From Diadema setosum (Eukaryota; Echinodermata; Echinoidea; Diadematoida; Diadematidae), in contig NC_092704.1 in the NCBI RefSeq assembly GCF_964275005.1, positions 34,124,416 to 34,188,415 on the forward strand: DNA of 64,000 nucleotides. Direction: 5' to 3'. The stretch's first letter is position 1; each line of letters opens with the position of its first letter. Positions 13,262 to 59,248 of this stretch are shown piece after piece. The notes under the pieces are model-generated. The model made no database searches and had not been told where the DNA came from. It was given only the letters and a program-made list of their open reading frames with translations. The translations under genes and the position numbers were made by a program.

Positions 13262-13646
13262 AAGGGATTGTATAGTTTTGGTTGAGACCTAACTTCAGGT
13301 TTCTAACATTTTTGGGTGAGATAATGAGAAACCTTGTATGAAATGTGAAAGCGCATGTAATTCCAATTGGAAATCAGCATTCATTTAATTAAAATTGGTT
13401 TTGAAATAGCTGTGGTACCCAAAACAGAGCAATTCTAATAAAAGGTGGGGCCCATCTTCTATTAGGATCGCTTTGTTTTACTTTGTTTTTGGATATTTCA
13501 GTCATTCCAAAACCAATTTCTATCAAATAAACTTTGAATTCCTCTTAAAATGGTATGCTCTGTACCGTCTTCCACAAGTGTTTTCTTGATATCTCCCCAA
13601 AATTTAAAAGCCCAATTCTCATCTCCACCAATACTGTACCTTCCCT
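13262..13646. mobile_element. Foldback-type MITE, family B copy 1
   Basis: The ends are inverted AAGGGATTG / CTTCCCTT, and the right side abuts TTAA. Inner blocks shared in inverted order with 60836-61219 include GAGACCTAACTTCAGG and ATGGTATGCTCTGTAC. Confidence 0.65.
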
Positions 13647-13650
13647 TTAA

Positions 13651-14083
13651 AGGAAACCAAACCCACAAAGAAATGTAGATTGAGTGAAAACAGCAACATC
13701 AGTAGAGCACATCAGTGAAAGTTTGAGGAAAATCGGACAATCGATGCAAAAGTTATGAATTTTAAAAGTTTTTGTATTAGAACCACTGTATAAGAAGACT
13801 ACTCGAGTTTATGACATCATTTGTGGACAACAATGTAAAGAAAATATAAAGAAAATTCAACATGCTTTCACTTTTCCAGCGTAATGAAAGAGCACTTCAC
13901 TAACCAATTGTTGTCCACACATGACGGCATGAACTGGTAGTCTCCTTATCAAGTCATTACAACACCAAAACTTTAAAAATTCACAACTTTGCATCGATTG
14001 TCCGACTTTCATTGATGTGAACTACTATTGTTGCTGTTTTCACTCAATCCATGACATTGCTCTTTTGGTTTTGGTTTCCTTTG
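13651..14083. mobile_element. Foldback MITE, family A copy 1, TTAA-flanked
   Basis: Both ends read AGGAAACCAAA inward, and TTAA flanks each side (13647 and 14084). The arms share blocks such as TGAAAGTTTGAGGAAAATCG and TGCAAAAGTTATGAATTTT with their reverse complements. The same blocks recur at 47594-48158. Confidence 0.75.
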
Positions 14084-16074: not shown

Positions 16075-17290
16075 AGAAATTTAATTTAAAATGCTCTATA
16101 AAAGCGACTTTTATAGTCTGTATTTACAAAAAGTCCCTACCCTGGGAGGGGGTATCCCCCTCCCACACCCTCCCCCGCTCGGTCGCTTCGCTCCCTCGAC
16201 GAGGATCTCACACCATCACATAATATACCTCCGTATGTTAAGATCATGGTCCTTCCAACTGATTTTTTTCAATATCTTAAATCCCTAGAAATTTGCTTTT
16301 AAATGTTCTATAAACGCAACTTTTATACTCTGTTTTTACAAAAAGTCCCTACCGTGGGAGGGGGTATCCCCCTCCCACACCCTCCCCCCCCCCCCACTCG
16401 CTCGCTTCGCTCCCTCGCCGAGGATCTCGCACCATCACATTATTAATGTACTCCCGTTCGTTATGATCATAGTCCTTCCAACTGATTTTTTCAATATGTT
16501 AATTCCCTAGAAATTTGCTTTAAATTCTCTATAAACGCGACTTTTATAGTCTGTTTTTACAAAAAGTCCCTACCGTGGGATCCCCCCTCCCACACCCTCC
16601 CCCCGCTCGGTCGCTTCGCTCCCTCGCCGAGGATGTCACAGCATCACATAATTATGTACTCCCGTATGTAATAATCATAGTCCTTTGCACTGATTATATT
16701 TCACTTTGTTTAATTCCTTAGAAATTTGCTTTTAAAGGGGATGGCTAGTAACTGATCAGTGGGAATCAGTGGGAATGCTGAGGGATGATTGTTCCAATCC
16801 TGGTGGGATTCATTTAAGAGTACATTATATATCTATTGTTGTGTGAAAATTATTTGCTTCAGAACGGTCTCATATTCAAGTAATGTGCAGTTTAATGCTT
16901 CCAGGTAAGCGTCCCTGGTCAGTGACGGGGCATTAATCTGCACATTTCTTGAATATGAGACCGTTCTGAAGCAAATAATTTTCACACAACAGTAGATATA
17001 TAATGTACTCTTAAATGAATCCCACAAGGATTGGAACAATCATCCCTCAGCATTCCCACTGATCGGTTACTAGCCATCCCCTTTCTATGGTCTATAAACG
17101 CGACTTTTGTACCCCGTTTTACAACAGCTCCCTACAGTGTGTGTGTGTGTGTGTGGGGGGGGGGGGTATCCCCCTTTCCACCCCCCCTCCCCACCCCCCC
17201 CCCCCCCCCCCGCTCACTCGCTTCTCTCCCGCGCCGAGGATCTCACATCGTCACAATGTGCCCCCGGTGAGATTTTGCCCCCCCAAAACC
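16075..17290. repeat. Tandem array of a unit of about 210 bp with a GC palindrome, four copies
   Basis: Copies start near 16075, 16287, 16500 and 17090. Each has GAAATTTGCTTTTAAA, CTATAAACGCGACTTTTATA, CAAAAAGTCCCTACC, a palindromic GGGAGGGGGTATCCCCCTCC, then CTCGGTCGCTTCGCTCCCTC and GAGGATCTCAC. The fourth copy is separated by the foldback at 16737-17081 and has gained a GT run and longer C runs. Related fragments occur near 36450 and 46206. Confidence 0.85.
16737..17081. mobile_element. Foldback MITE of 345 bp inserted in the tandem array
   Basis: Arms 16737-16897 and 16931-17081 are near-perfect inverted copies, with outer end GGGGATGGCTAGTAAC and inner GAACGGTCTCATATTC. The loop is about 33 bases. 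The array unit is cut between GCTTTTAAA and TCTATAAACGCG, so the insertion came after the array formed. Confidence 0.85.
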
Positions 17291-17580: not shown

Positions 17581-17808
17581 CTACGAAAAAGAGGTGTCAC
17601 TTTTTCGATAATAAATGTGTATGTAGTTCAACGAGGCCTTGCAGTCTTGAGGGTCTATACGGGGTACCTTTGCACTGATTTCGTCCGGAAAAGAGCTCAT
17701 TAGCAGTTCGTGCACGTGGTCGAAGTCTGACTGGAGGTCTCGCTTCTCTTGCTCGGACTCGGCCAGCTGCGCGGCGAGGGATTGCTTCTCGTCGTTTGCT
17801 GTCTGCAG
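17581..17808 (-). CDS. Coiled-coil gene, exon 12 (last visible)
   Basis: The acceptor is TTGTTTTTCCAG. The exon codes LQTANDEKQSLAAQLAESEQ and on to a stop at 17581. The first 40 residues are coiled coil and the last 25 are not. An internal GTACC after SAK might be a donor, in which case the true C-terminus lies further left. Confidence 0.72.
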   Translation of the reverse strand: MQTANDEKQSLAAQLAESEQEKRDLQSDFDHVHELLMSSFPDEISAKVPRIDPQDCKASLNYIHIYYRKSDTSFS

Positions 17809-18542
17809 CTGGAAAAACAACAACAGCGACATCCGAATGGTAGAAGAGGAGGAAGATAAAGTCGCTGCGGTAGAACTGTAGCACAATCAAACCTGTCTTA
17901 GCGACCACCTGTCTATAGCGGCCACTTTCCGTATACTATCATTAAAAAGAAAAATTTCTCCGAGAGAGAAGGCATATTAAAGAACTTGTCTGCAGCGACC
18001 ACCTGTTTACAACAGTCACGTTTCCTCCCCTAGGTGGCCACTGTAGACAGGTTTGACTGTGATAACAGCTTATAGAAGCGGCACTGATGCTGATAACGTT
18101 AATGAAAATGATAGGCTCCTATATAGCAATGGTGTTAATGATGGTAAGAACAGTGACATGATTAGTGCGATAATGATGTTAATACCAGCTACTTGATAAG
18201 TGTGAAAATGATGATGTTAACAACAACGTAATGGTACTTATGAAAAAAAAAAATAAGCCTTAATTCAATGTAACCACTACCACCCTTCCAGAAGGCCTCG
18301 CGATACTCCAGTATCGGCATGTTCCCCGTGATTTCTACACTCAAGGCAAGGATACAGTCGGTGATACGTCTTGTCCCACGATTTAGTCTTACGATCTCGT
18401 CTGGAGAGGAGCTTCTGATCATTATACCACTCCTTTATTACCAGAGAAATAAAACAAGAAGACACTACAAAGTGGCTAAGAGCTGGGCAATAACGGACTA
18501 ACGAGGGCCTGCTTCACCCAAGTGCAGTTTGTTTTTGTGTGG

Positions 18543-18603
<61 letters not shown>

Positions 18604-21600
18604 CGTTGTTATTGTTGCTTTTTGTATGTCACTATGATACTTGCATGGTGGATGTCATTAAGACGGACTTTCGTCACACTTTCGTCAGCTCCGGAATATT
18701 CAGGCTCAGGAATGATATCACAGATAATTCTATATCGAATAATTCGTTATCGATTGTCTCTGTGCTGTTTCTGTCTTGGTGGCATGAAAATGATATGAAT
18801 ATCTAAACGAATGCTGCTTTTGAACTACATCGAAACAAACAGAATGTTTGTAGTTTCTAGCAAGGGAACGGAAATATAATAAGGAAAGTTACAGACTCTC
18901 AGGGTTTCACATGTGCTCATGGAGCAGCATGTCATCACGTTCCATCACTGACGGAATTTTACAGATTAGTTGAGATAATTATGCAATTGCCTCACTTGCC
19001 TGCCATCTTATTTACCTGCACAGTACGTAATAATGATTATGGCTATCGTATGTTACATTGTAATCATTACTGTCACCGTTGGTATTATCATAAAATCATT
19101 TATCGCTATAAATTATGTTAATCTTTCGGCCTCTCTAGCTCTGCTGCATCTGTCTGTAACATTCGTAGGGCGCAGTAACAGATATTTTTGATATTTCTCA
19201 CTCACCAGCATAGAGAGTTGTTCGATATGAGTCTCTTGTTCTCTCTTCTGCCTGGACAGAGTGGTGATTTCTGACCGTAAGTTCCTGATACTCGTGTCAC
19301 TTCGCTGCTTACGACAGTCTTGCAGCGACAGATTATCGTCTCGGTAGTTCTGTGATATAGTATGTGGACAAGATTTTGGATAGACGCCACAACTACTTAT
19401 ACTGCTGCAACTCTATAATCAGAATGATTATTAGTGTATTAAGTGTACTACTCATACTTTTTCATTCGGATCTATTAAGAAGCAACAAATTGGTAATTGA
19501 CCGAGATATTAAAATATCTCGGAACAGCTTGTGGGCGCCATTATCATCATTCTATCCGTGCATCCAGTGAATCTTTGTGCTGTTGTCTGCTTAAGTATGA
19601 GTTATCGTCATTCCCGTATGATTACTTGCATCGACCTTTGATTATAGGTGACCGATATTCGTCAACGAGAAGCGTTACTTCATAGTTCATACCATAAGAC
19701 TGAAAAAAATGGAAACATTAACAAGATTAAATGAAGCATAAAATAAAGCTTTTAATTCCATACCTCGCAATTTTGTTTCAGGTGAATAGTTTAATGCTCG
19801 CAACTGACATCATGGTTAAATACACGATTCACCTGTTCACATAACTTCTTGAAAATGCTCCTTTTTGCAACTCATGTATCTTTAACACTATACACTCTAA
19901 AAAAAATCCGAGTCAGAACTGATCCGGAACTGGTTCCGTTGGGGTCACACACCGTTCCGGGTCAAAAATGACTTGGAATTTGGTCATGAAGACCCCGAAT
20001 GGGGTCACCCTTACCCAATTTATGACTCTGAATGGGTCATATCTGACCCCATTCCTTGTCATTTCTCCGGAACGGTGTGTGACCCCAACGGACCTAGTTC
20101 CGGGTCAGTTCTGACCCGGGTGTTCTAAGAGTGTAAAGACAAACAAAAAGTAAATTGATTTCTTCATCTGTTGCTTCAGGGGAACCAGTTGTGCCATACA
20201 ATATTAATTAATGTTCTGGGAAATACACTTCTAGGACACAAAAGGGTGGAGTTGTTGAGCGGAGTGCAAATGCAGGAGAGCTGTGTACTGCCGCTGCCCC
20301 AGCTTCTGTGTAAAAATGCCGTTTGTAGCCTAAGGGGATTGTCGTAGAGGTCGCTCTTACCCTAGACGCGTTGCAGCTCCGATCACTGTGAGGGTTGCAG
20401 CTCTCTCTTCTCATCGTCCACGTACTTGTCCGTTCCAGACGACCCACCTGTCGCCGCAGAAAAGGAGACTGATGGACAACACGTAAACTACTTTCATAGT
20501 ACAAAACTCGTGGCGTCAAATATCCCAAATCACATAACTTGAGATGAATTGAAGAGAGAAATCTTCTTCGCAATGGATGATAATAATAAGCATTTTAAAG
20601 TGGCGACGTACGGTAATAGCAGTAAACTAATGCCGTAATAATGAAAACGATTATGATGTCGGTATATTGACTGCGATAACGTCCGCAATCATAATAAAAA
20701 CGGGTACAAGGATGAGAAAAAAAAAGGCTCATACAATCTTATTCGGTAAATTTCAGCCTTATAAAGACACCATTAATTCAGAAAGTTATGATGCGCACGA
20801 ATCCACAAAAACTTGATTCGGCCATTACTACCTTTTAAGCATGGTTATATGAGCTGCTTTGAAGGCAGATTGACAATGCTCCAATTCTTTCATGTTTCAT
20901 CTTCTCCCGGTTAAAAGCAGTTTTATGTTAAGTGATCTCAATTTTGAGCAAAGTGTGAAGGAGTAAGGCCTGTACGAATACTCGAGAATCGTTTTAACAC
21001 AGTGGAGATCTTTTACCGCAAAGTACCGCTTCTTCCAGCACCCACCTTATTCGTAATGTCTTCCATCCTGTCGAGAAGAGCGATGCGGCCTTTTCTCACT
21101 TCCATTACTGTCTCCATCCACGCCTCTACCTCGCCCTCCAACTTGACCTTCTTCGCCTCCAACTCGGCCACCTTTCGCTGCCACTCGCCCACCACAGTCT
21201 GAGGAGAGCGAAATACTATAGATATTATAAGAGTTGTTTGCTTATCACAACTGATTGACAAAGTGACAAGGAGTTGTTTTTGTTACATCTTTTCTGTTAT
21301 CTCACAAAAGCGAGGAATACTCCCGAGTGGAAATTTCGATATCTGTTGTGAAATGACTAGGTCTACAACCTACTTCCTACCGGGGAGGTGGAAAGTAGAC
21401 TCTTTCCACCTTCCTGGATGATTATACATTGTTATAACGTGTGTGATTAACATGACCATTATTTTCTACGTCATTTATACACATGTACGTAGTTGCAGAG
21501 TCTTTTACGTAAAGAAAGTCTGATTTTGAAACCGGCACGTTTGGTTATAAGTTTTGATACTGCAACGTGAAAATACATTAGCGGCAATCGCTTAATTGGA

Positions 21601-24600
21601 GCTTCATTTGAGAGAATCATCTATCTAACCGGAGTACGGTGAGACGCTTTAGAGAGACATAATGTAGAGGGCAGGACATACTCTCAGCTTTATCTTGGAG
21701 GACTCTTCCGTTTGAAGTCGCTCTTCGGTCTCTTGAAGCTGCTCCGATAATTTTGCGATCTCCTTCTGCAGGGAAGCGATATTATCGATATTCCGCTGCC
21801 TGATGAACACCGAATCGCTCGCAGACTTGGCCAGCTCGCGATTGGCCGCATCCAGCCGGCTGGAAATCTCTTCCTTGCTCGCTGCCAGGGCCTGCTCGTT
21901 GTCCGCAAGAGCCTGGATGTGAAGACGGAGAATACAAGCGCTATTTCCGTTGCATAGACCAAAGTTATCAATAGAGGCGAGCATCTGTCACTGCCTTACG
22001 TCACGATTTACACAGCTAGTTGATTGTAAATTGAATTTTAGTCGTGTGCTATCTCACTTTTGCAGATCTTATAGTCACGCGAAACGTCAAGGCGCGAGAC
22101 AATTGGTATAAGAGAATGCACCAAAGACGCACAATGTCCATTGGTATGGACAAAAAAAAAAGAAAGAAAGCATAATTCAGTTTGCCATTCCGGGATTTTC
22201 CGAAGGAGTAGGTCTTATATCATTAAATTCATGAGAGCTCACATGATTAATGATAATATTGCTATCGATATTGATGAAAGTAATTAAAAAAAAAACTGGA
22301 ACTATACATGCGTTTGTTCGTTCTTCTTTTTTCCACTTTGGTATTATGCTCTTTCTTTTCGGACAATTTCGTTCGGTTACACCATCATTTTCCGAGCATT
22401 GTCCCGATGGCGTTTTTGATTGCTGAGTAATCAAGAAAATGAAAGAGTGGCGACTGTGACAATCAAAATGAAAAAAAAGAAAGAAATGATTTTGTCTGTG
22501 TTTTCAGTTAGGTGTGAATTGAATCATGGCGCCTGCAGGAATTAACGAATAACATCACTTTTTCGTCACCCAAACAACATGTTACTCTTACCTTCACCTG
22601 TCCCTCCAAGCACCATTTATCGACCAAAAGGTCAGATACTCGCTGAATGACTTCAAGACTGTTCTCCATTCTAGAGCCTTCTGATATTTTCCCTCCCACG
22701 TCTTTGCCTATCTCCTTCACTGACACTTCTCTCGGAGATGACGTCTCCCTCACAATGGCAGTAGTTAGGTCCGTTGTTTCCATGGTTTTTCTCACCGTCA
22801 ATGGGAAGTCTACCCCCTTCCGCACATTTAAAGCACTTATCTCATTTCCCTTCACCTCCTTTTCCATTCCTACTCTTCTTTCACATTCTTTCATGTTGTC
22901 TTCGCTGGTACGATCCGCGTTCGATTCTCTTCTGGGTACACGCCCTACAACCACGCCTCGCATCGTACCAAGCGCATCGCCGTGACGAGGAGCTCCTCTC
23001 AGCTGCGGATTCGAGATGCTTCCTTGAGGTCTATCACCGCGGACCTTGGCGGCTGTGCGGGAGCAGCATCGTCTGGTCGTAAAGGCCCTGTCGGCTTCCT
23101 TCTGTCGCGACTCCCACATTCTGATTTTGTCGGAGAGCGGGACAGTATTTTGCGCATCACCGACATCCGCTCGTGTCGTAGTCTTTTCTTGGTCTGACGT
23201 CTTTTCTCGCCGAATCTTAACCTGAACGAACAGTCAATAGATTTATCAATCCCAGCTGCAAGGTAAGCAACTCATCATCGAAACCATGAGAAGAGTTGTG
23301 CAGATTTATCGAACACACCAATACAATCTCAGACTACTTTTCAAGCGAGAATAAGGCAGTTTGATTTGAATTACACAAGGAGTTTAGAGATCCAAGCATC
23401 AAGTTAGGGTAAAGCCCTCGCTGTGGCTACAAAAATATCATTGGCACGTAAACTACATGTCAACATCTAACAAAAATTGTCCTACAACGCGTCTTTTAAC
23501 ATAATTATGATAACGACAAACCTTTAGATGTTTAGATTTCATTTCAATTTATGGTGCAGTTCAAACAACGAATCAAAGACTGGAAGTACACAAAGCATCC
23601 TCTAAAGAATAATGATCAGACCCAGAACTGGCTTCGCGTATCACTGACTCTCAGCCTTGAAGTCACTGGTTCGAGTCCCGTTGACACCTGCACCGGATGA
23701 ACCCCTTGACCTGTTCCCCACTGTCTAGTCCTACTGAGGATAGTTCATGCTGTATACCGCTTCCGTCCTGGCTCGCTCATAAGCAATAAAGTGCTTCCGC
23801 AGCGGCAAAATCCAAACACACACATGAAAATCGATACTGGTGTTAATGTTTTTTTAAATGTCAAAATAACTTTATCTCCGGAATTTTCAGCTGTCAACAC
23901 TACAGCCTTCATCAGTGGACTGACTCATCTTCACCTAGATCACGTGACGGTCGATTGAAAAAAAAAATCTTATTCTATCATGTCGCAAAGATGAATCGAC
24001 TTGTTTGAGCATACCTTTGTAACGATCTCACACGACTTGTCGTCGTTGCTAAGGAAACCTTCTAGCTCCTCGATGACCCTCATCATCTTGCTCATCTCCT
24101 CCAGTAACAGCGGAGATGCCGTCGAGTGAATCTTGGTGTAGAAAGCCCTTTCGTTCTTTTGAGGAGTAGTGGATGTGCCGCTAGCCATCGTTTTCCGAAC
24201 TGGTCCCGATTCGCCGTTGAAACAGACGCCAACAATGGCTTCGGCCCTCTGTCGAGCGTTCGCTAGAAACAGCCGTGCGCGTGCCCGGTCGTCCAGAAGT
24301 GTCTGAATTCTATAGACAGCATATGTTTTAAGTTTAGAAGGAAAACGTGTCAAAAAATGAAAACCCATGCTCTGAAAAAGGATAAAGGCGGTGTGATATG
24401 AAAGGTTCATCAGAAAGAATTCACCAGTGAAATAAGAGAGCATTTTTTAGAGCATTGTTTTGTGCTATTTCTAATCATTGCTTCATTTCATATCATCATC
24501 TAATCATGGTGCATGTACAACTTTGTTATATTTTCGTGCTTTTATGCAGCAACGTCATGATTGAGAACGTGAGGTAAAAAGTAAAAGTAAACTGAAATTG

Positions 24601-27600
24601 GAGCTTATGTAGCCATCAGCATGATCGTGACCTTTAACTCACTGCCAGGGTCACTGTCTTTGAGAGATGCCGAAGAAAGACGCAAAAAGACAATGAAAGA
24701 TGTAAGTACCGTTGAGCCATGCCTTTGACATCTTTTCTTAGGGAGGCATTCCTTGCTCGCTGTTGCTTCAGTCTTATGGACGAGGCTGTGATACCTCGGC
24801 TGACTTTCACCAGACGTGTCACTGTCTTGGACTTTGTTGTTCCGCCTCTTCTCCAGACATGGGTCCGGGAATGCTGTCGTACAGATGCAGTCTGGGAAAG
24901 GGAACAGGGAGAGATCCCATTCCCGTGGAACTAATGGAAGCCTTGGTTACACTGATATACAACCGACAACAGTGTACAAGGTTTGTCGGCGTTTCGGCGC
25001 ACATAAAACTTGAGATAATAATTTTTGGTTCCCTTGGACGGCACACAAACGCCCGAAAGCTCAGGTTATACTAGTTATCAAAATGATGGCTACATTAGTA
25101 TCTTAATCCACGTGTATGTTCATTTGGCATCATTTGATGTTTTAATTGACCCACTATCTGCTGGTTTGGAGAAATATTTCCTTATCATGGTTGTATGAAC
25201 ATGGTGCGCACGCTATATAAATTTGATCAAAGGGCACATGAGTTTAGCAACAGAAAGACGTGAGAAAGATAAAATCGTTCATTTACGGAGACCTTTTGAC
25301 ATCAGTTTGCCATCCGACTTTCCAATACCTTTCTATTAGGGGTGACATTACATCATCATGGAGAGGCCATCAGAGGCCTGGTGTATATCAGACTTTATGT
25401 AAAATATACGGAAAGCTTTGTAATTATCACATCATAAGGGGTGGTATCACTTTAACCTGAAGGAAAGATGTAATATTTGTGGCTGTTCCATCACCTGCCA
25501 ATATAGATGTCATCCCCGCTAATACCATTGAATACCTTTCGGCTTGATTCAGAAAGACGGATGTATGGTCTGCTCATTGGTTGCTATAGTCAGTTTGTCG
25601 GCTTCGATTTCTCTTGTTCGATTTAATATAGGTAGGTTTGCACATCTATCTCCATCGTTAGATCGATTGATGAGATCCTGAGATGGTGAGCTCACTTTCT
25701 CCTGGATCAATTGAGGTGTATACCACCTGCAAGAATTCCTCGATTTCTTTACTGATCGTTATTGCTCTTCTGTCGAGAAGGAGACGATAATTACCTGGTT
25801 CCCATTGTGATCTCCCTCCCTCGTTATATCCACGGCTTGTCTAGAACTGATGATGACAGGGAGACCAACCCGATTCTCAGCCTCCCCAGCCTGGATGAGT
25901 TCCGATCCTGGATGTTCAGCTGTGTTCTCACATCTGTTTTTGTTGCCATGGTAACCGTTCTCGGCTTCCTTAAAGGCATAATTTAGCATTTGTAGATGAA
26001 ACAAAAACCCAGCACTAGTGCTTTAAATTAGTTCTAAATGTGAGTTAGGGGTAGAAACAACCATTGTAAAAATTGGAATCCATATATTTGATGTTAAATG
26101 TTGTCAAATACACAAAATGTGAACAATAGTTATGATAAAAATGTTTCCAGACTAAACCGTCTACAGTTACGGTTTATTGAGAGAAACACTGATATCTCCT
26201 TATGTTTTAGGTTTTATTGTCAATATTTTATATAGTATGATGTTTTGTGATACAACAGACCTGCACATATTCATCAAATATGACATTTTGAACATTTTTG
26301 AAATCACTGCTCCCAAAGGTAAACTGGACCTTTGTTAAAAGTGGATCGTGTTGGTGAAAGAAAATAAGGGATGGTTAAAAAACACGTCCTCTGAAATGGT
26401 TTTAAATCCAAATGTTTCCATAAACTAGCTGCTCCTTAATTTTTGTCTTCGATGTGATGTTAATGAAATGTGACACAAGCATAGTTAATACAAAGCAACA
26501 TCTGACCGATTTTACCAGTTATCCATCATATTATCTAATTAAGCATGCCTAATTAAGGGAGACAGGGGAAACGAGGATTCAAGACACACGTCAACGTTGA
26601 TCCCTAGGTTCTCTGATATCTGATTCAGCATGTGTATTGACATCCATTTATAAGGCATTTCGAAAATGGTTATCAAGAAAGAGCAGATTCAAGACGTATA
26701 TTGCATGAAATAATACAGACACTGTGTACAGTATATTGTCGACTGCATCCATGAGCTTTGCAGGCTTACATTTTATATCGTCATAATGATATGAGGTTCA
26801 GATGAGAAGTGGAAGTAGGTTGACTTCAAGTAACTCCTTTTTTTTGGGGGGGGGGGTAGAATACCTTGTTCTCCAGTGTCTCGATAGTTAGCTTCAGCTT
26901 TCTGATCTGCTCGCGGAGCTCCGCCTGTCGGACAGCCATCTTGATGACGTCATCTTGCTTGCTGTCCACCACCTCTTGCTGGGCGCGGCCCTGGATTTTG
27001 GCCAGACTGAGGACCCAGTTGAGCCGGGCCGATTCCCGTCTAGCTGCCGTCAGTCTCAGCTGCACACATTCTGCAAAGAACAGGACGTGATGTTAACTTT
27101 CACGTTATTCAGTACTAGTAGTTGTCGCAGACTATATTTCCCTGTTCTCAGTTAATATTCATGACTTTCCAAGAAAGAAAGTTCTGCCCTGACTTACCAA
27201 GTTTCCTACTGTCTTTGGCGATGCATTCATCCCTACTTCTTACGTCGTCCTGTAGTTTCCTAATTCTGTCTTGCAGTTCGCAGCGACGAGTTTCAAACAG
27301 TCTGCTCTGTCTCTTCATTTCCCGCTCCATCTTCAGGAAGAGCAAAGCTTTCCTAAACGCAAGTGAGTGAGGAGAAGAATGGTATAGGACAAACATTTAA
27401 GATAAATAGACGTTTTCCATGGATCCACATTTAAAACACAAGTTCTTCGCTGTAACTCTCTCAACTCAGTATCTGCAGTTCAGTTCTGATCTGAAGTGTG
27501 TGTGAGTGTGTGTGGGGAGGGGTACGACAAAAAATGTAAGAATATCGTGATTATAACACATTTGTACGACAAAGATCTTATCACATGTACCTCTTATTAC

Positions 27601-31806: not shown

Positions 31807-32016
31807 ATGTCTGCTGTGGTAAGAAACTTGCAGAAAGCCGTCGATTTGAACCTGCCAAAGCTGAAGGCAGATGTTAAAGCGATCCGTCGAATCCTACGGG
31901 TCGAAAGATTTGATGTCAGCGTGGTGTGTGTTGATAACAAGGAGGTTCAGAAAATGAACCGAATATACCGCGGCATCGACGAACCAACAGACGTGCTGTC
32001 TTTTCCAGCTCACGAG
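31807..32016 (+). CDS. YBEY: YBEY exon 1
   Basis: 70 codons, MSAVVRNLQK to SFPAHE, donor GTACGT. The start is placed by alignment with human YBEY (MSLVIRNLQR). Confidence 0.93.
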
Positions 32017-35000
32017 GTACGTACTGTCACGGGCATTACCCCGAACTCTTCCCGTGGTTTTCCCAGCGAGTCTCCGTGCTCCTGGCAGAAGAGCCGCTGC
32101 CTCCATCTTCAAAATGATCTTGCTATTTTCAAGTACTGTGGTAGACTGTAAGTACGCCATTGTGGTTCAAATAATACGTGGCGTCAATTTCAGTGTGAAG
32201 TTCAGTAAACTGAGCGTGCGTATGCGTGTCTTCTGTCAATTTTCCAGTTTTATTGGGGCGGAATTAATTTACATGTGGGTCAATCCATGTCAAATCATCC
32301 AGTGCTTGTCACCCGACCCCCTCCGATTTTCTTAAAAATCGCACCAAATGTTCCCCAAAGTGTCTGACGGAAAATCCCAAAATATTTTGCCCTAAGGTCA
32401 ATTGGTTGCTAAGATACAGCCTCACATAGCAACCGGTGCGCATTCCAAAAAATTAGTTAAAAGAAAATTAGGCATTTTTGATTGACTGTTTTAGCTTGGA
32501 TATTTATGCAAAAGTGTTCATTATCTGGAAATTGAGAAAACTTTATAGTCTTTACAAGAAAAACTGACTGTGACGCGAAATTGACTTTTCGTTAACGTGC
32601 ACGAGGTCACCGAAAATGGTGTTAAATGTTAATTTTGAAAATTTTAATGCATATTTAGAAGCTAATATCTTCCACATTTCATCACCTTAGGTTCTAAAAT
32701 ATTATGCTGTTGAAGGCTTTGACTTGCTCAGTAATTTTGAAAAAAATCGGTGCATTCATGATGACCGTTTTTACGGAGAGCGCCCTCAAAGTTGACAAAA
32801 ATGAAAAATGTGCCAAATTCAAGGTCACGGATCACCCTTCGTCCCACCTAGGAATAGCATCAATTTTTGTATATTGATAGACATTTACCTATATTATCTT
32901 GGGTTACCAAAGAAATTTTGCTCCCGAAATGTTCAATGGCAAATTTACCCCACCGAAAATGGTCGTAAACGGCCAAATTCCCATGTAATATCACATATTG
33001 GGTTTAGAGGACATTTCAAATGTCCACGCTTTCAAAATGAAAAGCACTAGCCCTGTGATATTTGCATTAGGGATAGTCTGTTATACGTATTTTAGTAATA
33101 TATACCACAAAACACTTTTATTACATAATAATGACCTTGAAATTTAATCCAAAATTTGATAAAAAACAATAAATCGCTCATTTTCCTCATTGCACTGCAT
33201 GTAAATGCATGTGTTTTGAAAGACTTTTCACAGAGCAATATTTCAAGAATTGTGAAAGCTGACATTCTACCATATTAGGGTGCTAAACTATTTCTGCTCA
33301 TCTTCCAGATTTAGTGTCAATTTGATCATGAATGTTATATCTTTGACCTTGAAGTGCTTCTAAAAATAGCTGTAAATTTGTTAACTACAAATTACACACA
33401 CAACAGGTGTTTTATGGCAGGATATGCTTGTTATTCTTCCACAAACACACAAGCTTTTTATGATGTAAATGTTATATACTGGAATTAATCTATACGTGTT
33501 TGCGAGATATGTTACAATTAATTACTCTGTTCTGACAATGACCCTCAATTTCAATCAAAAATGGGGATGGTAATATTTTGTGATTTTGTGTGCATTTTCT
33601 ATGGAAAACAGTGCTTTTTGTGTTGAAACTCATAAAAACTTGACCATTTTTACTATCTATCACTTTGATTGGTTAATTCTGTTCTAGTTATGGTAGAAAA
33701 GTGGGCTGTGACAATTTCCAATAAAAAAAACATGGTTATGCTGCAGAAAATAAAAACAAAGAAATACATAAGAAATTCCCAAAACAAGAAAATACATAAA
33801 AAATTGAAATGATTTTGAAAGTTTTCATTAGGTACAGAACAAAAAGACTCCTCTCAGTCCTTTTAATGTGCGTTTCACAGGCTAGAATACAAATTGTTTA
33901 ATGTCCATAATTATCAATTATTATTACGTACTTTAATACAGGTCTTTATGGAGAGGAATAGGCATTTCTCATGATTTTGAAGGTCATAAATTGAGGGTCA
34001 TTGTCAGAACAAAGCAATTGATTGGAACATATCTTGCAAGCATGTATAGATTAATTTTAGTATATAACATTTACACTATAAAAAGCTTTTGTGTTTGTGG
34101 AAGAATCACAAGTGTATCATGCCATAAAACACCTGTCGTGTGTGTACTTTGTAGTTTACAAATTCACAGCTATTTTTAGAAGTACTTCAAGGTCAAGGGT
34201 ATAACATTCATGATCAAATTGACACAAAATCTGAAAGAAGAGCACAAATACTTTAGAAACTTAATATTGTAGGCTGTCAGCTTTCATAATTCTTGAAATA
34301 TTGCTCTGTGAAAAGTCTTTCAAAACACATTTACATGCAGTGCAATGAGGAAAATGGAGCGATTTATTGTTTTTTTATCAAATTTTGTGTTAAATTTCAA
34401 GGTCATTATGATGTAATAAAAGTGTTTTGTGGTATATATTACTAAAATATGTATAACAGACTATCCCTAATGCAAATATCACAGGGCTAGTGCTTTTCAT
34501 TTTGAAAGCGTGGACATTTGAAATGTCCTCTAAACCCAATATGTGATATTACGTGGGAATTTGGCCGTTTACAACCATTTTCGGTGGGGTAAATTTGCCA
34601 TTGAACATTTCGGGAGCAAAATTTCTTTGGTAACCCAAGATAATATAGGTAAACGTCTATCAATATACAAAAATTGATGCTATTCCTAGGTGGGACGAAG
34701 GGTGATCCGTGACCTTGAATTTGGCACATTTTTAATTTTTGTCAACTTTGAGGGCGCTCTCCGTAAAAACGGTGATCATGAATGCGCCGATTTTTTTCAA
34801 AATTACTGAGCAAGTCAAAGCCTTCAACAGCATAATATTTTAGAACCTAAGGTGATGAAATGTGGAAGATATTAGCTTCTAAATATGCATTAAAATTTTC
34901 AAAATTAACATTTAACACCATTTTCGGTGACCTCGTGCACGTTAACGAAAAGTCAATTTCGCGTCACAGTCAGTTTTTCTTGTAAAGACTATAAAGTTTT

Positions 35001-37742
35001 CTCAATTTCCAGATAATGAACACTTTTGCATAAATATCCAAGCTAAAACAGTCAATCAAAAATGCCTAATTTTCTTTTAACTAATTTTTTGGAATGCGCA
35101 TCGGTTGCTATGTGAGGCTGTATCTTAGCAACCAATTGACCTTGGGGCAAAATATTTTGGGATTTTCCGTCAGACACTTTGGGGAACATTTGGTGCGATT
35201 TTTAAGAAAATCGGAGGGGGTCGGGTGACAACTTTTCTGAAAATTGGATGATTTGACGTGGATTGACCCATGTATGGGTGATGAGGGTGTGATGACCAGA
35301 CCTCCAGCTCTGTGTGGTTGTGCCTTGTGGACATGGTGTGGCATGTGGAAATGGTTGAGTTATAGACTCATTGTGATGTAGGTACAATTCTATAAGCATT
35401 GCAGTTTTGTCAATGCTATGTGGTGGATGAAGTTTGCCAAATGCAAACTGAAAAATTCAATGTAGAATTTGGTTATGCTGATCACTTTGGCAGTGGAATT
35501 CAGGCGCACATCAATATGTTAAACTAAATAACTGGCACGATCCCCCCCCCCCCCCTCCCCCCAGTAGAACATAGTATCTATAGGGCCCCATAATTTTCTG
35601 GCATTTATCCACTTTCTGTCTGTGCTGTGTGTGTGTGTGTATGCTAGCTGGTGGGGCTGGGCTGCAGGATGTATCAATCGATTCTGTTTTCAATCAACTA
35701 CAGTGTATTATGAAATCAAAGTGAATATGAAATTGAAAGACGGTTTGTGATCGAGCTCACATGCACATTTTTCACATGATCTTTCTTTACATTTCATTTA
35801 GGAACTTCACCCATTTTCAGAGCAATATAATTCATAAGCCAATTGCCTGGCATGACAGTAGAATTCATGGTCAAACAAAGAATAAACCAGCATGGATCAG
35901 GTGACCACATGGCCTGTCAAGTCACACTTTGCCAAGCATCCATTTCATTGTTTTGCATTGAATGTATTTGAGCAAACTTTTCCAATCACCCTGGCATTTA
36001 TTGCCAATTACTAGGCTGTAATGAATGTTATGTTGCTGTCAGGTGAATGTGCTGGCAGATAATGCACCATTTACCACAAAATTGGAAATTTTGGGCATGT
36101 CATGTGATGTAAAATTATCACGAAAATAAAAGCAAGGACTTTTTTTGCGTGTCATATGTGATATTATTTTGAATTTTGATTCTACAGAATTAAAAACGTG
36201 AAGTTCATCTTAGGAAGCCTATCATAGAAATTTTTTAAACTAAAATTCCCACTTTTACCGTATGAAGATACACCTCAGATGCTTATCTCCATGAATTTAT
36301 AGGCCAGCCTGCCTTTCATGACAAATGGCCTTTTTTTTTCTGCTCACGTGCAAAGTTGAACTACAAACTGAATTATAGTATAGTGTACATGAAACATGCG
36401 GCTTTTGTATGACACACACACTGTGACACACACAATATACGGTATTACACTTTATGGGGGGCCAGGGGGAGGGGGGATATCCCCGTAAAGACTTTTTCCA
36501 TTGTGTTAGTGATCTGTATAATTCTCCAAATTTTGATGTATACCTTTGAAAACTTCTGTAAGATAAATTTGTATAATTCTCCAAATTTGGATGTGAGAAA
36601 TGATTAATATACCTTTGAAAACTTGTGTTAAGATGAATTCCACAAGCTACACAGTTTGTAGGACCACTAAATGAGTTGATCAAAGGATGATGTATGTGGA
36701 AATGGAAGTCAGAATTATGTTTTCACGTGCTTGCTTGGAGGAGATGTGAAACACTGTATTTTTCTGCAAATTATTAGCATGGGGTCACTGTGTACACTAG
36801 GTGTTTGTTGTTGTTTTCCCCATTTTTTCCTCACTATATATATATATAATGTACCATGAACAACAATATGTCATGCACTTGCAGTACAACACATACCGAA
36901 CTCACACACTGAATACAAACTTGTCTAGATAGAATACATGCCCTTGTGTTGACCTTCAGGCCCCAAGCAGGGGCCTGAAAGGGTGTGTCAGTAATGCTGC
37001 AATTTGATTGGACAGCTGTGAGAACACACCTCCTTCTTTTACAATGTGTGTTTACTGTGTGTGCATAGCACTTGCTGTCTTCTCTTTGTTAGGATAGGAT
37101 GCTTGATGGGTTAACTTTGCATTGTAGCTTTTAGAGTGATGCAATTTACAGAGCAGGGTTGTGTTATTCAGAGTGGGCAGTGATCCTATTACTGGTTGCT
37201 CTTTTCTTCCCCTTTTTTGGAATCAAAACACAAGTACATTGCAGTTACATGTAGGCTAAAAATACATTCAGAAACTATACAACACATAATGTCACATGTC
37301 ATCATGTTTACACTGCTAAACCACAAAAATGTATGTAATGTTATATACATGTGTATATGCTCAGTCTGTGTTCACTGCCATGGGAATGCCAGCACAATAT
37401 TGACAGAGTTCAATAAGGATGTAGAGTCGAGATATTTTTGGCCACTTTTACATGGGTATGGCTTGTAAAGTGTAAGACACTGAGTGCGTGTGATATATTT
37501 ATGCCAACACAGCTCTTCAGTGTGCAGTATCAGCTCGTCTCCAATGTGACTTGATATGGTATGGTGATAGCATACTAACAGAATGGAAGATGTTTCACCA
37601 GCATTATCTACATGAAAAGTCAGTGTGTTTTCAAATAAGTTCAATAATATTTTTAGTGGCTACAATGTAGAGTAGGTGAGTAATGATGTCATTACATGAC
37701 AACTCTTTCATTTGCTACACTGTAATATAAAAATCATGTTTG

Positions 37743-37773
<31 letters not shown>

Positions 37774-40700
37774 ATGACTCAGCAACTTTAATTTCCGTGA
37801 TTCCCTAGCCTCTTGCCAAGGCAGCTCGCAATGGACTCGTTAGTGAGCAGTGGACTCGTATGCATATACAGCGATCGGATTGGTACTCTCGCAGCTCGCC
37901 GGTCGCTCGCTGTGTGTGAGAGTCCATTGCTCTCTGTGTGCGTGTGCTGAAATTATAGAGAGCTGCCTTGATTCCTGAAAGTCATTGTACAATCCAACAA
38001 TGAATGGATGCAAATGATACTTTTTAGTTCACTATTTAAGCAACAATTCTCAGATGATTCAGTGGAGATTTGTGTGCTGGGCAACAAAAGGACTTTTACG
38101 GGACAACATTGTCACTGCATTTCATTTGATTATTCTGGTAGTAACCAGTAACACTGGTTCATGAAAACATGAGAAACTATCGAAGTTGACTAAATCATAA
38201 TTGCATTGTAATTGTCATGCCATGTATTTAATTTAGCTAAATTTCTACTGCCATATTCAACTTGAGCATGGAGTAGACTTGCACTTTAATTTTTCACAAC
38301 AAAGCAAGTATTTCTCCTTTAATTTAACATAAGTTGTACAAAATACATTAGAGGTCAAATAATAAATTAGTGTAGGATGCAGTGATCTCTCATGGCATGA
38401 AATAAAAAGACACTTGGTATGTTATTTGTAGGAGGACATGAGACAATCAGTTATGTCCAGGAGCCATCAGGAGGAAATTTAGCTCACAATATTTTCATCG
38501 CCTGTCACAGCATAAATTTCAGTCAACAGCCCAAGTGGAAATTGTGCCAGCAAGCATGTTGCCGAATTTGCTCAGTGGATACTTACAATATCAGTGATCC
38601 AGTTATGTGAGAAAATTTATGAAACTGATAGACAGTAGATTACAATAATGTTACATGCTGCGTACGCTTAAAAATGAGATCCTGGCCATATGACTGTAAA
38701 GAAGGAGAAGAAGAAGAAAAAAAAAACTCCTTCAAATTCTAGAAACTCCATCTTGTCGTTCGTGCATTTGGCATTTATGTTGTTGCTACTAGTATAATTA
38801 TTGCAGTTGTGGTGGTCTAATCATCTCCACTGTAATCAGTCAGGAGAAGTTGGTTGCAGAGTTCACTTCAAGAGAATGAGCACTTTAAATTTTGGTTACT
38901 TTAAATTTTGGTTACCATGGCTACTGACAGGATGCCTTCTACCCTTTTTTCTCCCCCCCCCCCCCCCCCTGCAGAATCTGAAGCCGGGTCGGCTTCCAGA
39001 TCCATGGAGTGATCTGGCCGACCTGGGAGATATGTTCCTTGGTGTAGAGTACATCCTAGCGGACTGTCAGAGGTATAAGACAGACCTCGATGACATTCTA
39101 CCGGTGAGTTGACCCAGTGATGTGGGTATGTGGGGGGGGGGGGGAAGGGGCCTCCGACCAACCCCAGAGAGTGGAAGAAGCAGCTGATCAAACTCATCAA
39201 TCCGAGCTCACACACACTCACACACGTAGACAGTGCATCTGCATAGTAATTATTTCTGGCATGATTGAAGAGCTTGCAACCTATATCCTTTGGGTGGTAG
39301 GGAGAATAATATTACCCTCAGCATTTTATCAGTATTATTAGAAGATGAGGAAATGTGTACTTTTCATTAGATATTAAATGCTATAGATTTCTCTCTATAC
39401 ACATTTATTAAATCTTTGTGCTATTTTGACAGGACATGATTTTGTTGTAGCCTTTCCACTTCAATTCATGTAAGTAATACAAATGGATATGCTTAAACAA
39501 CTTTTTGTCGGCTTATTTCTTTTTTTTTTTTTTTATTTCATTTATATGTTTTATTGATTTTCTTGATTACAAACAATACAAATTACACAATAATTATGAA
39601 CATATGGAACAAAAAATAAAAATGAAAATAAGATCATCAATAAGACATAAAAACGCAGTATCATTTTGATCAATACACAAATTATTGTGGTAGTCACAAG
39701 TATAACATCTTGAAGGTTCTACCCTAACAAATAGAGTCTATGTTAAACATCTACGTGGTTTTACAACTCAAATTTCCATTTCTTAAAGTGAAGATGAAGT
39801 TTACCTCGTTTCTTAGCCACATAATACTCTGTTTCTTTCTTAATTTTCAAGTGTAACTTTAAAAATTCAAAATTGGGTCTAATGTTTTTAAATTTACATA
39901 TATAAATGAAATATTTTAACGACAAAAACGAAAAAGATAAGAATCTTATTTCTATCTAAATAACAGCAAACTTCACTGAACTGTTCTACTGAAATTTCTG
40001 CATTCACTGAATCCATTCAAATGTATTGATTAAAATGCCCCTTTCAGTGGGAAACAAAAAGAAGAGAAAACTTGTGCATTTTGGTGTAAATACAGTGTTC
40101 ATGTACAAATCTTCTTGTAAATACCCCTAATGGCCCTAAGCATCATTGTTATTATGAAGGGTGTGGAAGAGTAGGAATGATGGCAGTAGATCGTGTGTGT
40201 AACCAAAGAGCTAAGTAGCTCTTTGGTGTAACCCAGGAAAAATGCACTTTTGAGAGCATCAAATGCCTATTAAACATGTGTCATGTCTTGTTCATTGACA
40301 GGTTATTGTGACCCATGGGTTCTGTCATCTGATTGGCTACAATCACAAGACACAGGAACAGTGGCAGCTGGTTAGTACTTCTTTCATATTCAATAATTTT
40401 GTTTTTACAGACAATTTGTGAGCATTTTTTAAACATGAGTGGAAATCATCTGGATTTTGACCATGTAATGTAGTATTGTAAGATCCCAGTATACTCTTAA
40501 GAAAGCAGCAAATAGCTGATTTTGTTGTTGTTGTTGTTGTCGTCGTCATTGTTGATGTTGTTTTTATGGCTGTTATCGATTCTACAGATTGGATATTTTG
40601 AGAGGTTTACTATATCGTCGCTGGGGTGACAAGACCTTGTATCTGCAATTTTGGTGAAAATGACTTCTTTTTTTTAGATTAATGGTCAAATAATGGGTTA

Positions 40701-45938: not shown

Positions 45939-46561
45939 GTATAATATGTCGGGGCTGCCAACTCACAGACAATCAATATGAGACTTGAGAAATTTCCCCA
46001 TTTTAACTACAGTTGTACCTTACTCTGAGAAACAAATTCTTATGCTGAACCCCAAAAACTGAAAGTAAACAAAGACAATGTCTTCAAAATCATTGATAGC
46101 CAAAATGTTCAATATACCCAAATCTGCATGCACACCCGCTTTATGTATGAGTTGAAATCTTGACAAAAGTATGCACCAAATTGCACCATTCAAAATGTAA
46201 CATTGTCAAAGCTCCCTATCGTGAAGGGGGAAGTAACCCTACCCCCCCCCCCCCCCCCCCCTTGGTGGCTTCACTCCCTTGCAGTGTCTTACTAAACTCT
46301 CACACAGGGTTGGCAGCCTTGGTATATGTGCTGTGCATACTGGTTTATAGTACTATATAATCTTCATGCACAGTGGGTTGTGTCTCCTCCCACCTCCCCT
46401 GGTCTTACTACGCCCGCCGCACAGTACACAACCTCAGTTTGTATGACCTTCCGGTGTGACGGAGTTTGTATGACCTAAGTGTCCGGTCGTAGGACTAGGT
46501 CGCATGAACTAATCAGAAAGTTTTTGCATGTTGATTTTTTGTTCAGTGATTCATTATCAGA

Positions 46562-46679
46562 ACACTAAGGCCCGAATTCACAAAGGTGGTTTCAAATGAA
46601 ACTACGGTTTCTAGAAACCATGGTTTTTAGAAACCGTGGTTTCGAGCGAAACCACCTTTGTGAATTCGGGCCTAAGTGT
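46562..46679. mobile_element. Hairpin element of 118 bp
   Basis: A near-perfect palindrome along its whole length. The ends are ACACTAAGGCCCGAATTCAC and its reverse complement, and the centre carries alternating GGTTTC/GAAACC boxes. No coding content. It looks like a miniature DNA element or decayed foldback. Confidence 0.75.
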
Positions 46680-47293
46680 TTCATTTGGAATAAAGTGAGC
46701 TGAATTATCATGCTTATCATTAAGATGCACATCCACTTGAAAAATTCAACATGCCAAAACCTTCCAATCAGGTCGTGCGACCTAGTCTTACAACCTGACA
46801 CTTGAGAGTTCCTCCAGGTTGAATCAATATAGAAGCTACACCTGCTCTGACATGCATCATAATACACTTACCACAGCAAAGCATTAGCTTCTTCAGTGCA
46901 CATAAGGCAGTTCTCCAATCAATTCTCAATAAGGTGTGAGGTGTACTTCTTTATCTATTAACCTATATGGTCATGAAACACTAGCTTGTGTCAGCCATGA
47001 TAATGGGGGGGGGGGGGGGGCGGCTTCCAATATAAGAAAAGAAGATAATTCAATGGGTTATGTAATGAGTCATAGATGCATTGCTTTGTTGCATGGTGTA
47101 TGAATTAACTGTTGTTGAAGAGACATACTGAACCCCTCCCCCACCTGAAATAGATATCAACATAAAATACAGTGCCCAAAATGGAAGGTCCATCTTTTAC
47201 ACAAATCCATGTTTGCTTTTTCAAACTCTGTGCCTTTTCATGGTTGATATAGGTGTGTGCTGAGCATTGACCAGCTTCTAAAAAGCAACCATA

Positions 47294-48204
47294 AAAGCCC
47301 GCCACACACAATATGATCAGACCAGTCACATGACTCTAGGGCATACGACCAGTCACATGACTCAACACCGTACACTATACGATCAGACTACACAACTAAG
47401 TTTACGACCGTTCCGGCCTCAGGTCATTTTGGTAAGTATAGAAGCACACGCAGAACTCACTGTGTGCGCTTCTATACTCTTTGCATAATACTGTATCGCA
47501 ATTGGCTGAAAGCCCACGACTGGATATGGAAATTTGACGTGTTAATCTCAACTGAAACTGGCAAGGCTGGTGACGTCACACTTCTGGTCTTAAAGGACAA
47601 GTTCACCTTCATTAACACAAGGATTGAGAGAATGTAGCAATATTAGTAGAACACATCATTGAAAGTTTGAAGAAAATCAGAAAATCCGTTCAAAAGTTAT
47701 GAATTTTTGAAGTTTTTGTGCAGTCACCGCTGGATGAGAAGACTACTGCAGTGTATGATGTCACATGCGTACAACAATACAAGTATAAGGAAAATATAAA
47801 GAGAATTTCACAAAATTTCATCTTTTGAAAAAAGTACACATTCCCTTGACTCGCTACTGACATATGTTATGGGTAATATTATTCCCATTGCCTTTAGAAA
47901 GAGGCAAGTCAAGTGCTCTTTAATTATGCGAAAAAAGTGAAAATATGTTGAATTTTCTTTACATTTTCTTTATACTGTTGTACTCGTATGACATCACGAG
48001 CCTTAGTAGTCTCCTCATCCAGCGGTTCCAACACAAAAATTGTAAAAATTCATAACTTTTGCATCGCTTGTCCAATTTTCCTCAAACTTTCACTAATGTG
48101 TTCTACTAATATTGCTGCATTCTCTCAATCCTTATGTTAATGAAGGTGAACTTGTCTTTTAAGGTCGTACGACCGGTCTGATCATATAGTGTGCGGCGGG
48201 CTTT
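47294..48204. mobile_element. Outer MITE interrupted by a family A foldback
   Basis: Ends AAAGCCCGCCACACAC and GTGTGCGGCGGGCTTT are inverted. TATGATCAGACC and GGTCTGATCATA also pair, with further GTCACATGACT motifs on the left. It is split at a TTAA by the element at 47594-48158. Confidence 0.75.
47594..48158. mobile_element. Foldback MITE, family A copy 2, TTAA-flanked
   Basis: Ends AGGACAAGTTCACC and GGTGAACTTGTCTT are inverted, with TTAA on each side. The arms of about 210 bp share TTGAGAGAATGTAGCAATAT and AAGTTATGAATTTTTGAAG blocks with their partner and with 13651-14083. Confidence 0.88.
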
Positions 48205-58798: not shown

Positions 58799-58926
58799 TA
58801 TATCTTATCTCAACGACCAGGGATGACATCTCATAGCACTTTGTATCCAGTGGAAAAGGTGCTATCAAAATATTAGCTATCATCACTATCACAGGTCTGC
58901 CAACATTCCTACATCCAAATCAGGGA

Positions 58927-59144
58927 GATTCCACACAGCAATCACGGAGATATCTGTGTGTTACATGCATTACAATGGACGAAAATAAATCCCAAATCAG
59001 GGAGATTTTAATATTCTCTTTTTTGACATTATCATTAGATTCCACACAGCAATCACGGAGATATCTGTGTGTTACATGCATTACAATGGACGAAAATAAA
59101 TCCCAAATCAGGGAGATTTTAATATTCTCTTTTTTGACATTATC
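58927..59144. repeat. Tandem duplication of 111 bp
   Basis: Two essentially identical copies, starting at 58927 and 59038, lie 105 bp past the kinesin stop codon, so probably in its 3' UTR. Confidence 0.95.
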
Positions 59145-59248
59145 AGGGAGACTCCTGCAGAGTCAGGAAGACTTGGCCGCTCTGCTATCATTATCTATCA
59201 GAGTTCCTGTTTAGTGTAAGGTGATGATAAAATGAATGATAAAGGCAG

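Follow-up and report, generated by a model that had tools for sequence, protein, structure and literature searches.

The inverted repeat in YBEY intron 1

The window analysed here is a stretch of 64,000 nucleotides from the sea urchin Diadema setosum (C20:34124416-34188415 of a 912.7-Mb genome in 102 contigs). It carries the gene YBEY on the plus strand, and within this gene lies the subject of this study, a foldback element of 2,993 bp (32277-35269). The element is an inverted repeat, or near-palindrome, in which two arms are arranged in inverted orientation around a spacer (Table 1). An earlier note, made from the sequence alone, had described the inverted arms, the spacer and the ATGT flanks, and its coordinates prove to be exact to the base. 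It had also placed the element in the first intron of YBEY. This location is confirmed by the gene structure: exon 1 ends at 32016 and the first base of exon 2 is 38975, the intron between them being bordered by GT and AG. The element therefore lies in intron 1, which is 6,958 bases long and of which it occupies 2,993. Exons 1-3, when joined, match Pfam YbeY at 1.2e-26.

The element terminates in GGGTCAATCCA...TGGATTGACCC, and ATGT abuts it on either side. Alignment of the arms (32277-33551 against 35269-33988) gives 1221 identities, 49 mismatches and 17 gap columns. The identity is not evenly distributed in this copy. The best break separates the outer 970 positions from a much more diverged inner 300 (mismatches in Table 1), with a log-likelihood gain of 26.2, compared to a largest value of 7.8 in 300 shuffles. 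CpG changes account for six of the 14 arm mismatches located before window position 33209. The ratio of observed to expected CpG is 0.23 in the inner left arm and 0.21 in the spacer (33209-33987) against 0.89 in the outer 900 bp, a depletion that may mean that the inner part is of different origin.

A 25-base end pattern, allowing up to three mismatches, is found at two places within the window, and these are the two ends of the element; in shuffled sequences (n=100) the mean is 0. The only tandem repeats in the whole element are two short arrays, with scores of 33 and 32, and nothing was found in the window by Rfam and tRNA scans. The element has the long, nearly identical inverted arms and the short middle domain of a foldback. 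Internal tandem repeats in the arms, which are reported for the elements Tetris and Tm1 and are not required of every foldback, are not present here. Miniature inverted-repeat transposable elements (MITEs) are a few hundred bp in total, and a length of approximately 3.0 kb is outside this range; the earlier note had remarked that the arms are far longer than those of ordinary MITEs.

Table 1 Coordinates of the element, its parts and the flanking YBEY exons in the window
Feature	Position	Strand	Description	Basis
YBEY first coding exon	31807..32016	+	GT donor at 32017	Pfam YbeY E=2.8e-11 alone
Target-site duplication ATGT, left copy	32273..32276	.		
Left (L) arm	32277..33551	+	1,275 bp; no coding capacity found	Arm alignment, change-point, Pfam scans of stop-to-stop segments
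Left terminal 25-mer	32277..32301	+	GGGTCAATCCATGTCAAATCATCCA, then short (L) subterminal type GTGCTTGTCACC	
Inner L arm	33252..33551	+	Diverged from partner	35/300 mismatches vs 14/970 outer
Spacer	33552..33987	.	436 bp, A+T-rich, CpG-poor	
Right (R) arm	33988..35269	-	1,282 bp, L arm copied inverted	Arm alignment
Right terminal 25-mer	35245..35269	-	GGGTCAATCCACGTCAAATCATCCA, then long (R) subterminal type ATTTTCAGAAAAGTTGTCACC	
Target-site duplication ATGT, right copy	35270..35273	.		
YBEY second coding exon	38975..39103	+	AG and GT at borders	No Pfam match alone; within match of joined exons

Dispersed copies, their target sites and their arms

The element belongs to a family that disperses as one unit. 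When its first 1,324 bases were used as query, 42 matches were obtained from the best 40 of 278 candidates, and besides the window at least 26 places match all 1,324 bases at 96-98%. The 25-base end motif (up to three mismatches) occurs 262 times in the genome, 128 forward and 134 reverse, and the reversed-motif control gives none in either direction. Exact ends number 158 (82 + 76) and form 68 facing pairs, leaving 22 ends unpaired. The spacing of the pairs is 2,950-3,050 bp in 55 of the 68. The spacer was also used as a query: in the best 40 of 1228 candidates, 36 are inside paired or read foldback copies and four are beside a single exact end, so that among the scored matches the spacer sequence is found only in a foldback context.

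Further analysis was based on 72 copies, distinct by coordinates, which were picked for their likeness to the window copy or for their exact ends, so that degraded copies are under-represented. A perfect 4-bp target duplication flanks 63 of these, made up of 29 of the 33 for which longer loci were available and 34 of the 39 represented by 68-base ends. The symmetrised consensus of the 63 duplications is ATAT; 26 are wholly A/T, and 13 conform strictly to AWWT. The search for other copies and for 4-bp duplications beside them, both suggested in the earlier note, was therefore successful.

The sequences of 21 copies were compared with their majority sequence. Nineteen are 0.6-1.4% away from it and two are 4.75-4.91% away, and the closest two copies differ by 0.5%. 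We refer to the two groups as young and old, labels which were set by us from the divergence. The family is recently mobile.

Empty sites, whose identification had also been proposed, were found for one copy (L029) and not for the window copy. This copy lies within the open frame of a long interspersed nuclear element (LINE), in a part that we read from its sequence as the endonuclease. Removal of the foldback, together with an insert nested within it and one copy of TTTG, restores the LINE reading frame. The joined sequence is matched exactly, over 568 of 568 bases, at C14:35491346 and at C10:20425054. Because the LINE copies are identical over these 568 bases, the insertion is probably recent.

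The comparison of arms covered five old copies and 19 young ones, the latter being the closest to the window copy. For L033 the right arm is incomplete and for L034 the left, and copies that were nested, truncated or available as ends only were omitted. Left and right arms of the old copies were assigned by the orientation of the spacer or by best score, and the assignment agrees with the end types described below.

Between the young and old consensus sequences, arm positions 40-960 contain 22 differences common to both arms and one confined to the right arm, with none confined to the left (11 positions skipped). At positions 961-1270 the corresponding numbers are seven in both, nine right only and 18 left only, with one other (four skipped). 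The left and right inner arms are on average 9.9% apart in the 19 young copies, against 1.3-3.1% in the five old ones, which indicates that homogenisation of the inner arms ceased in the young lineage. The left/right differences of the young inner arms fall at the same positions across copies, with exceptions in 30 of 646 cells. In contrast to the inner arms, positions 30-988 of the young consensus have only two left/right differences, at 824 and 872.

Changes within individual copies also point to recent exchange. There are 41 derived states that occur in exactly two of the 38 young arms, and in 12 cases the two are the arms of one copy, where 1.1 would be expected. These 12 are spread over six of the 19 young copies. 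Counted over all coincident changes within a copy, the number is 36, compared to a mean of 4.6 and a largest value of 15 in 2,000 re-pairings of the arms. In one copy (L028) a short stretch of the arm, positions 1037-1080, has been converted, and in the window copy both arms carry the same changes at positions 262, 278 and 791.

The ends behave differently. The last 40 or so bases differ between the two ends of the element, with CCAGTGCTTGTCACC at one and CCAATTTTCAGAAAAGTTGTCACC at the other, a few of the copies having single changes. This combination of one short and one long end is found in 32 of 33 longer loci and in 39 of 39 loci represented by their ends, that is in 71 of the 72 copies, and in both subfamilies. 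The sole unclassified copy (L037), in which truncation has removed the left arm beyond its end, starts like the short type. Positions 1-25 have three changes in 950 cells, compared to about 0.8-1.2% in other segments of the arm, a modest difference in a set of copies found partly by those ends. The outer arms thus evolve in concert while the two ends stay different. The element had been called a clean foldback in the earlier note; the palindrome and its reading as a transposon stand, and the patchy identity of the arms and the difference between the ends had been missed.

Coding capacity, nested inserts and other repeats

No recognisable transposase had been noted in the arms, and a Pfam scan agrees with this. 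Ten segments derived from the element (two from the window, one from L040 and seven from the family consensus) gave no match above a family cut-off, and the only match among them at E 0.1 or better was to DUF2689, below its cut-off. The consensus contains 12 segments of at least 50 codons, three of which are near-duplicates of scanned ones and were left unscanned. An 81-codon stretch in the arm has no Pfam match. Between the young and old consensus it has six non-synonymous changes and one synonymous change (ratio about 1.5), so no constraint is seen, and the changes are too few to say more.

A partner encoding the transposase was then sought among pairs of exact ends wider than 3.1 kb, which number eight of the 68. 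The six pairs of more than 4 kb (L029, L030/31, L032, L040, L049 and a pair of 10.2 kb) look like interrupted foldbacks; the 10.2-kb pair was seen in part, as its ends plus 4,001 bases (L050), and the other five were seen whole. The 8.6-kb pair (L029) is a foldback broken by an element whose frame spans 1,483 codons, the 9.4-kb (L049) and 10.0-kb (L030/31) pairs hold inserts of 6.4 and 7.0 kb respectively, the 10.2-kb pair holds an insert that shares sequence with that of L049 at 78-80%, and the pairs of 3.4-4.6 kb (L033, L034, L032, L040) are interrupted foldbacks. Eighteen of the 22 unpaired exact ends were read. They belong to foldbacks in which the opposite end carries mutations or is interrupted, or to single or partial arms, with the exception of L057, where the stretch read at the unpaired end gave no match. 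One open frame each of L042, L043, L044, L045 and L047 had no Pfam match above the cut-off. In viral contigs there is no exact copy of a 22-base end pattern.

The large inserts that break three of the foldback copies (L030/L031, L049 and L050) are of some interest in themselves. The 7.0-kb insert has 38-bp inverted ends, CGTCGGCGTTTTCACGAAC..., found by BLAST. The ends of the 6.4-kb insert resemble these by eye only, and BLAST finds no similarity between the two inserts. There is no open frame of at least 110 codons in L030 or L031, and the longest within the L049 insert has 113 codons. The element nested in L029 (L029:2451-8072), which carries the open 1,483-codon frame and which we read from its sequence, without a search, as Gypsy-like, makes up the innermost of three insertion layers, being located inside a foldback inside a LINE.

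A lone fragment (L041:441-729) matches the outermost 289 bp of the arm at 80% identity, and has the same 25-bp end followed by a subterminal sequence of the short type. We take it to be a remnant of an older relative. No second copy of this kind was found among the best 40 of 1265 candidates.

The window contains several other repeats. A compact hairpin at 16765-17063, with 134-nt arms that are 97% complementary and 31 nt apart, lies among GC-rich direct repeats (16075-17259) and looks like another short inverted-repeat element. At 46561-46680 there is a MITE-like palindrome of 120 bp without a spacer, whose 60-nt arms match at 88%. A second inverted-repeat family is represented by arms at 47589-47799 and 47953-48163 (81%); a lone arm related to these lies at 13644-13901, at a distance of 34 kb. 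A dispersed repeat forms an inverted pair at 13477-13652 and 60830-61003 (87-88% complementary), and 58926-59145 contains an exact tandem duplication of 109 bases. Upstream of YBEY, on the minus strand at 17584-27396, several open frames have coiled-coil-like sequence and are perhaps exons of one gene; two of them, joined and compared to solved structures, gave weak matches only, the best being to vimentin (E 0.04).

Interpretation and related elements

On the basis of these observations, the window element is very probably a non-autonomous foldback DNA transposon, whose arms exchange sequence and which keeps one short and one long end. We suggest that a transposase encoded elsewhere would act in trans, recognising both 25-bp ends and excising the whole palindrome. 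Cut-and-paste transposition of this kind would reinsert the element at an A+T-rich 4-bp target, of which the symmetrised consensus is given above, and the target would thereby be duplicated. The arms would swap sequence by gene conversion or by hairpin-templated repair, such that the outer 0.95 kb or so stays near-identical, and the inner part of about 0.3 kb would have escaped this exchange in the young subfamily. The simplest explanation for the retention of both a short and a long end would be either that the transposase requires the two together or that exchange halts at the 10-bp difference in length.

A more far-reaching version of this proposal, which is possible if on balance doubtful, is that the element is a self-correcting palindrome. 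The arms would repair each other, so that mutations in their outer parts are either erased or shared, while selection for one short and one long end would keep the last 40 bp or so different; the transposase may be of a superfamily not so far known for foldbacks. If this were true, the two forces would act against each other and leave a sharp transition from homogenised arm to protected asymmetric ends.

Several points weigh against the interpretation as a non-autonomous foldback with exchanging arms. No transposase-bearing partner was found among the exact-end pairs and single ends looked at, in a search that was incomplete: four of the 22 unpaired exact ends (at C9:23.83, C13:17.06, C17:23.74 and C20:6.43 Mb) and four hits of a related end pattern, with the first 17 bases kept and base 18 different, were left unread. 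Ends with one to three mismatches (104 of the 262) were mostly unlisted and were met only by chance, so a transposase-bearing partner may still exist among them. Nine of the 72 copies have no perfect 4-bp duplication. Five of the 12 double changes within a copy come from L028 alone, and two are in a run of A. Finally, recent conversion could be mimicked by read-based polishing of the assembly, if this transferred variants between the arms.

The alternative with most in its favour concerns how the arms came to be alike. The main reason for their likeness might be that one arm served to re-form the palindrome in the founder of each subfamily, in a single large hairpin-templated duplication, rather than repeated conversion. 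The near-homogeneous positions 30-988 of the young consensus could stem from one such event. However, the changes private to both arms of a single copy, at more than their expected number, and the converted stretch in L028 point to small later events as well, and we consider a single re-formation rather unlikely to be the main cause.

A different possibility is that the hairpin is maintained by the host as a functional source of double-stranded RNA or small RNAs, for example to regulate YBEY or to silence the family. The transcript of the element is indeed predicted to fold strongly, with 92% of its bases paired, a free energy of -2170 kcal/mol and one uninterrupted helix of 457 pairs when G-U pairs are counted. 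Passages of PMC5625713 describe the palindromic Harbinger repeats as the most edited family in a frog, and list 83,594 hyper-edited sites for the purple sea urchin, with a footnote on quality. It is therefore plausible that the intronic hairpin is a candidate substrate for ADAR editing or small RNA production, as had been proposed at the outset. Yet dispersed copies with target duplications resemble the ordinary spread of a transposon and nothing singles out YBEY, and a function maintained by the host is in our view quite improbable. The element has no evident role in YBEY, and is most likely an intronic passenger.

The remaining alternatives can be dealt with briefly. Two independent insertions of a 1.3-kb element, adjacent and in inverted orientation, might explain why the inner parts of the arms differ more, but this is refuted by the narrow spacing of most exact pairs and by the location of the duplications at the outer ends, which leave it virtually no chance of being right. 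A false palindrome made by a missed adapter or a mis-join is similarly negligible: artefactual inverted repeats are a known type of long-read error, but here 72 copies at separate loci carry the same paired ends, the differences between left and right inner arms are family-wide, which would not be expected of such a product, and there are 4-bp duplications as well as exact empty sites for L029. On the three matters by which the earlier note could have been overturned, the outcome is thus that other copies exist, that 4-bp duplications occur elsewhere, and that the palindrome gives no sign of being an assembly artefact.

Comparison of this non-autonomous foldback with known systems can begin from the duplication length. 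Many foldbacks belong to the Mutator superfamily (Mutator-like elements, MULEs), which makes target duplications of 8-11 bp, and the 4-bp duplication here does not fit it. TU elements of sea urchins are, like the window family, foldbacks with long inverted arms; they differ in their 8-bp duplications and in carrying 15-bp tandem repeats within the outer arm.

In the passages of the literature compared, foldbacks are described in flies, plants, sea urchin (where TU is named) and midge (PMC4079207) and in nematodes (PMC3169594). Tetris of Drosophila virilis resembles the present family in being a non-coding foldback with long arms (up to 1,735 bp), a variable middle and no autonomous partner found, but it has duplications of 8-10 bp, and its arms consist of domains with internal tandem repeats, compared to 4 bp and two short arrays here (PMC4079207). 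Galileo, a member of the P superfamily in Drosophila, also has long inverted arms, and many of its copies consist of two arms and a non-coding spacer; it differs in its 7-8-bp duplications (consensus GTATTAC) and in having a nearly complete copy that bears a transposase, whereas here the duplications are of 4 bp and no transposase was found (PMC4168063, PMC2775673). The duplication length here does not fit the P superfamily either. Two Tm1 elements (Mutator/Foldback) of root-knot nematodes have asymmetric motifs at their outer ends, as seen here, but Tm1 has 9-bp duplications, tandem repeats of 13-15 bp in the arms and a Mutator-type transposase (PMC3169594). Sola2 elements share the 4-bp A+T-rich duplications (AWWT in amoebozoan elements), a likeness by duplication alone that does not imply membership, and unlike the present family they have inverted repeats of 12-21 bp and encode a transposase (PMC3627910). 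No foldback with 4-bp duplications was found among the open-licence PubMed Central papers listed for the subject, and of 31 papers retrieved with the end motif as text, the ten listed bear titles on other subjects. The family may already be named in Repbase or Dfam.

Transfer of sequence from arm to arm has already been suggested for Galileo, in the part of PMC4168063 compared. Relative to the passages compared, the themes are thus singly already known, and the quantitative contrast between homogenised arms and divergent ends is the part not met in them. Long inverted repeats are noted to provoke breaks and rearrangements (PMC2775673, in part); despite this instability of palindromes, 55 exact-ended copies of about 3 kb have spread through the genome. 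Copies in genes such as YBEY would also provide kilobase hairpins in which RNA editing and small-RNA output can be measured. With its many copies, two subfamilies, inner arms that would no longer be exchanging and divergent ends, the family amounts to a replicated natural experiment on the homogenisation of palindromes.

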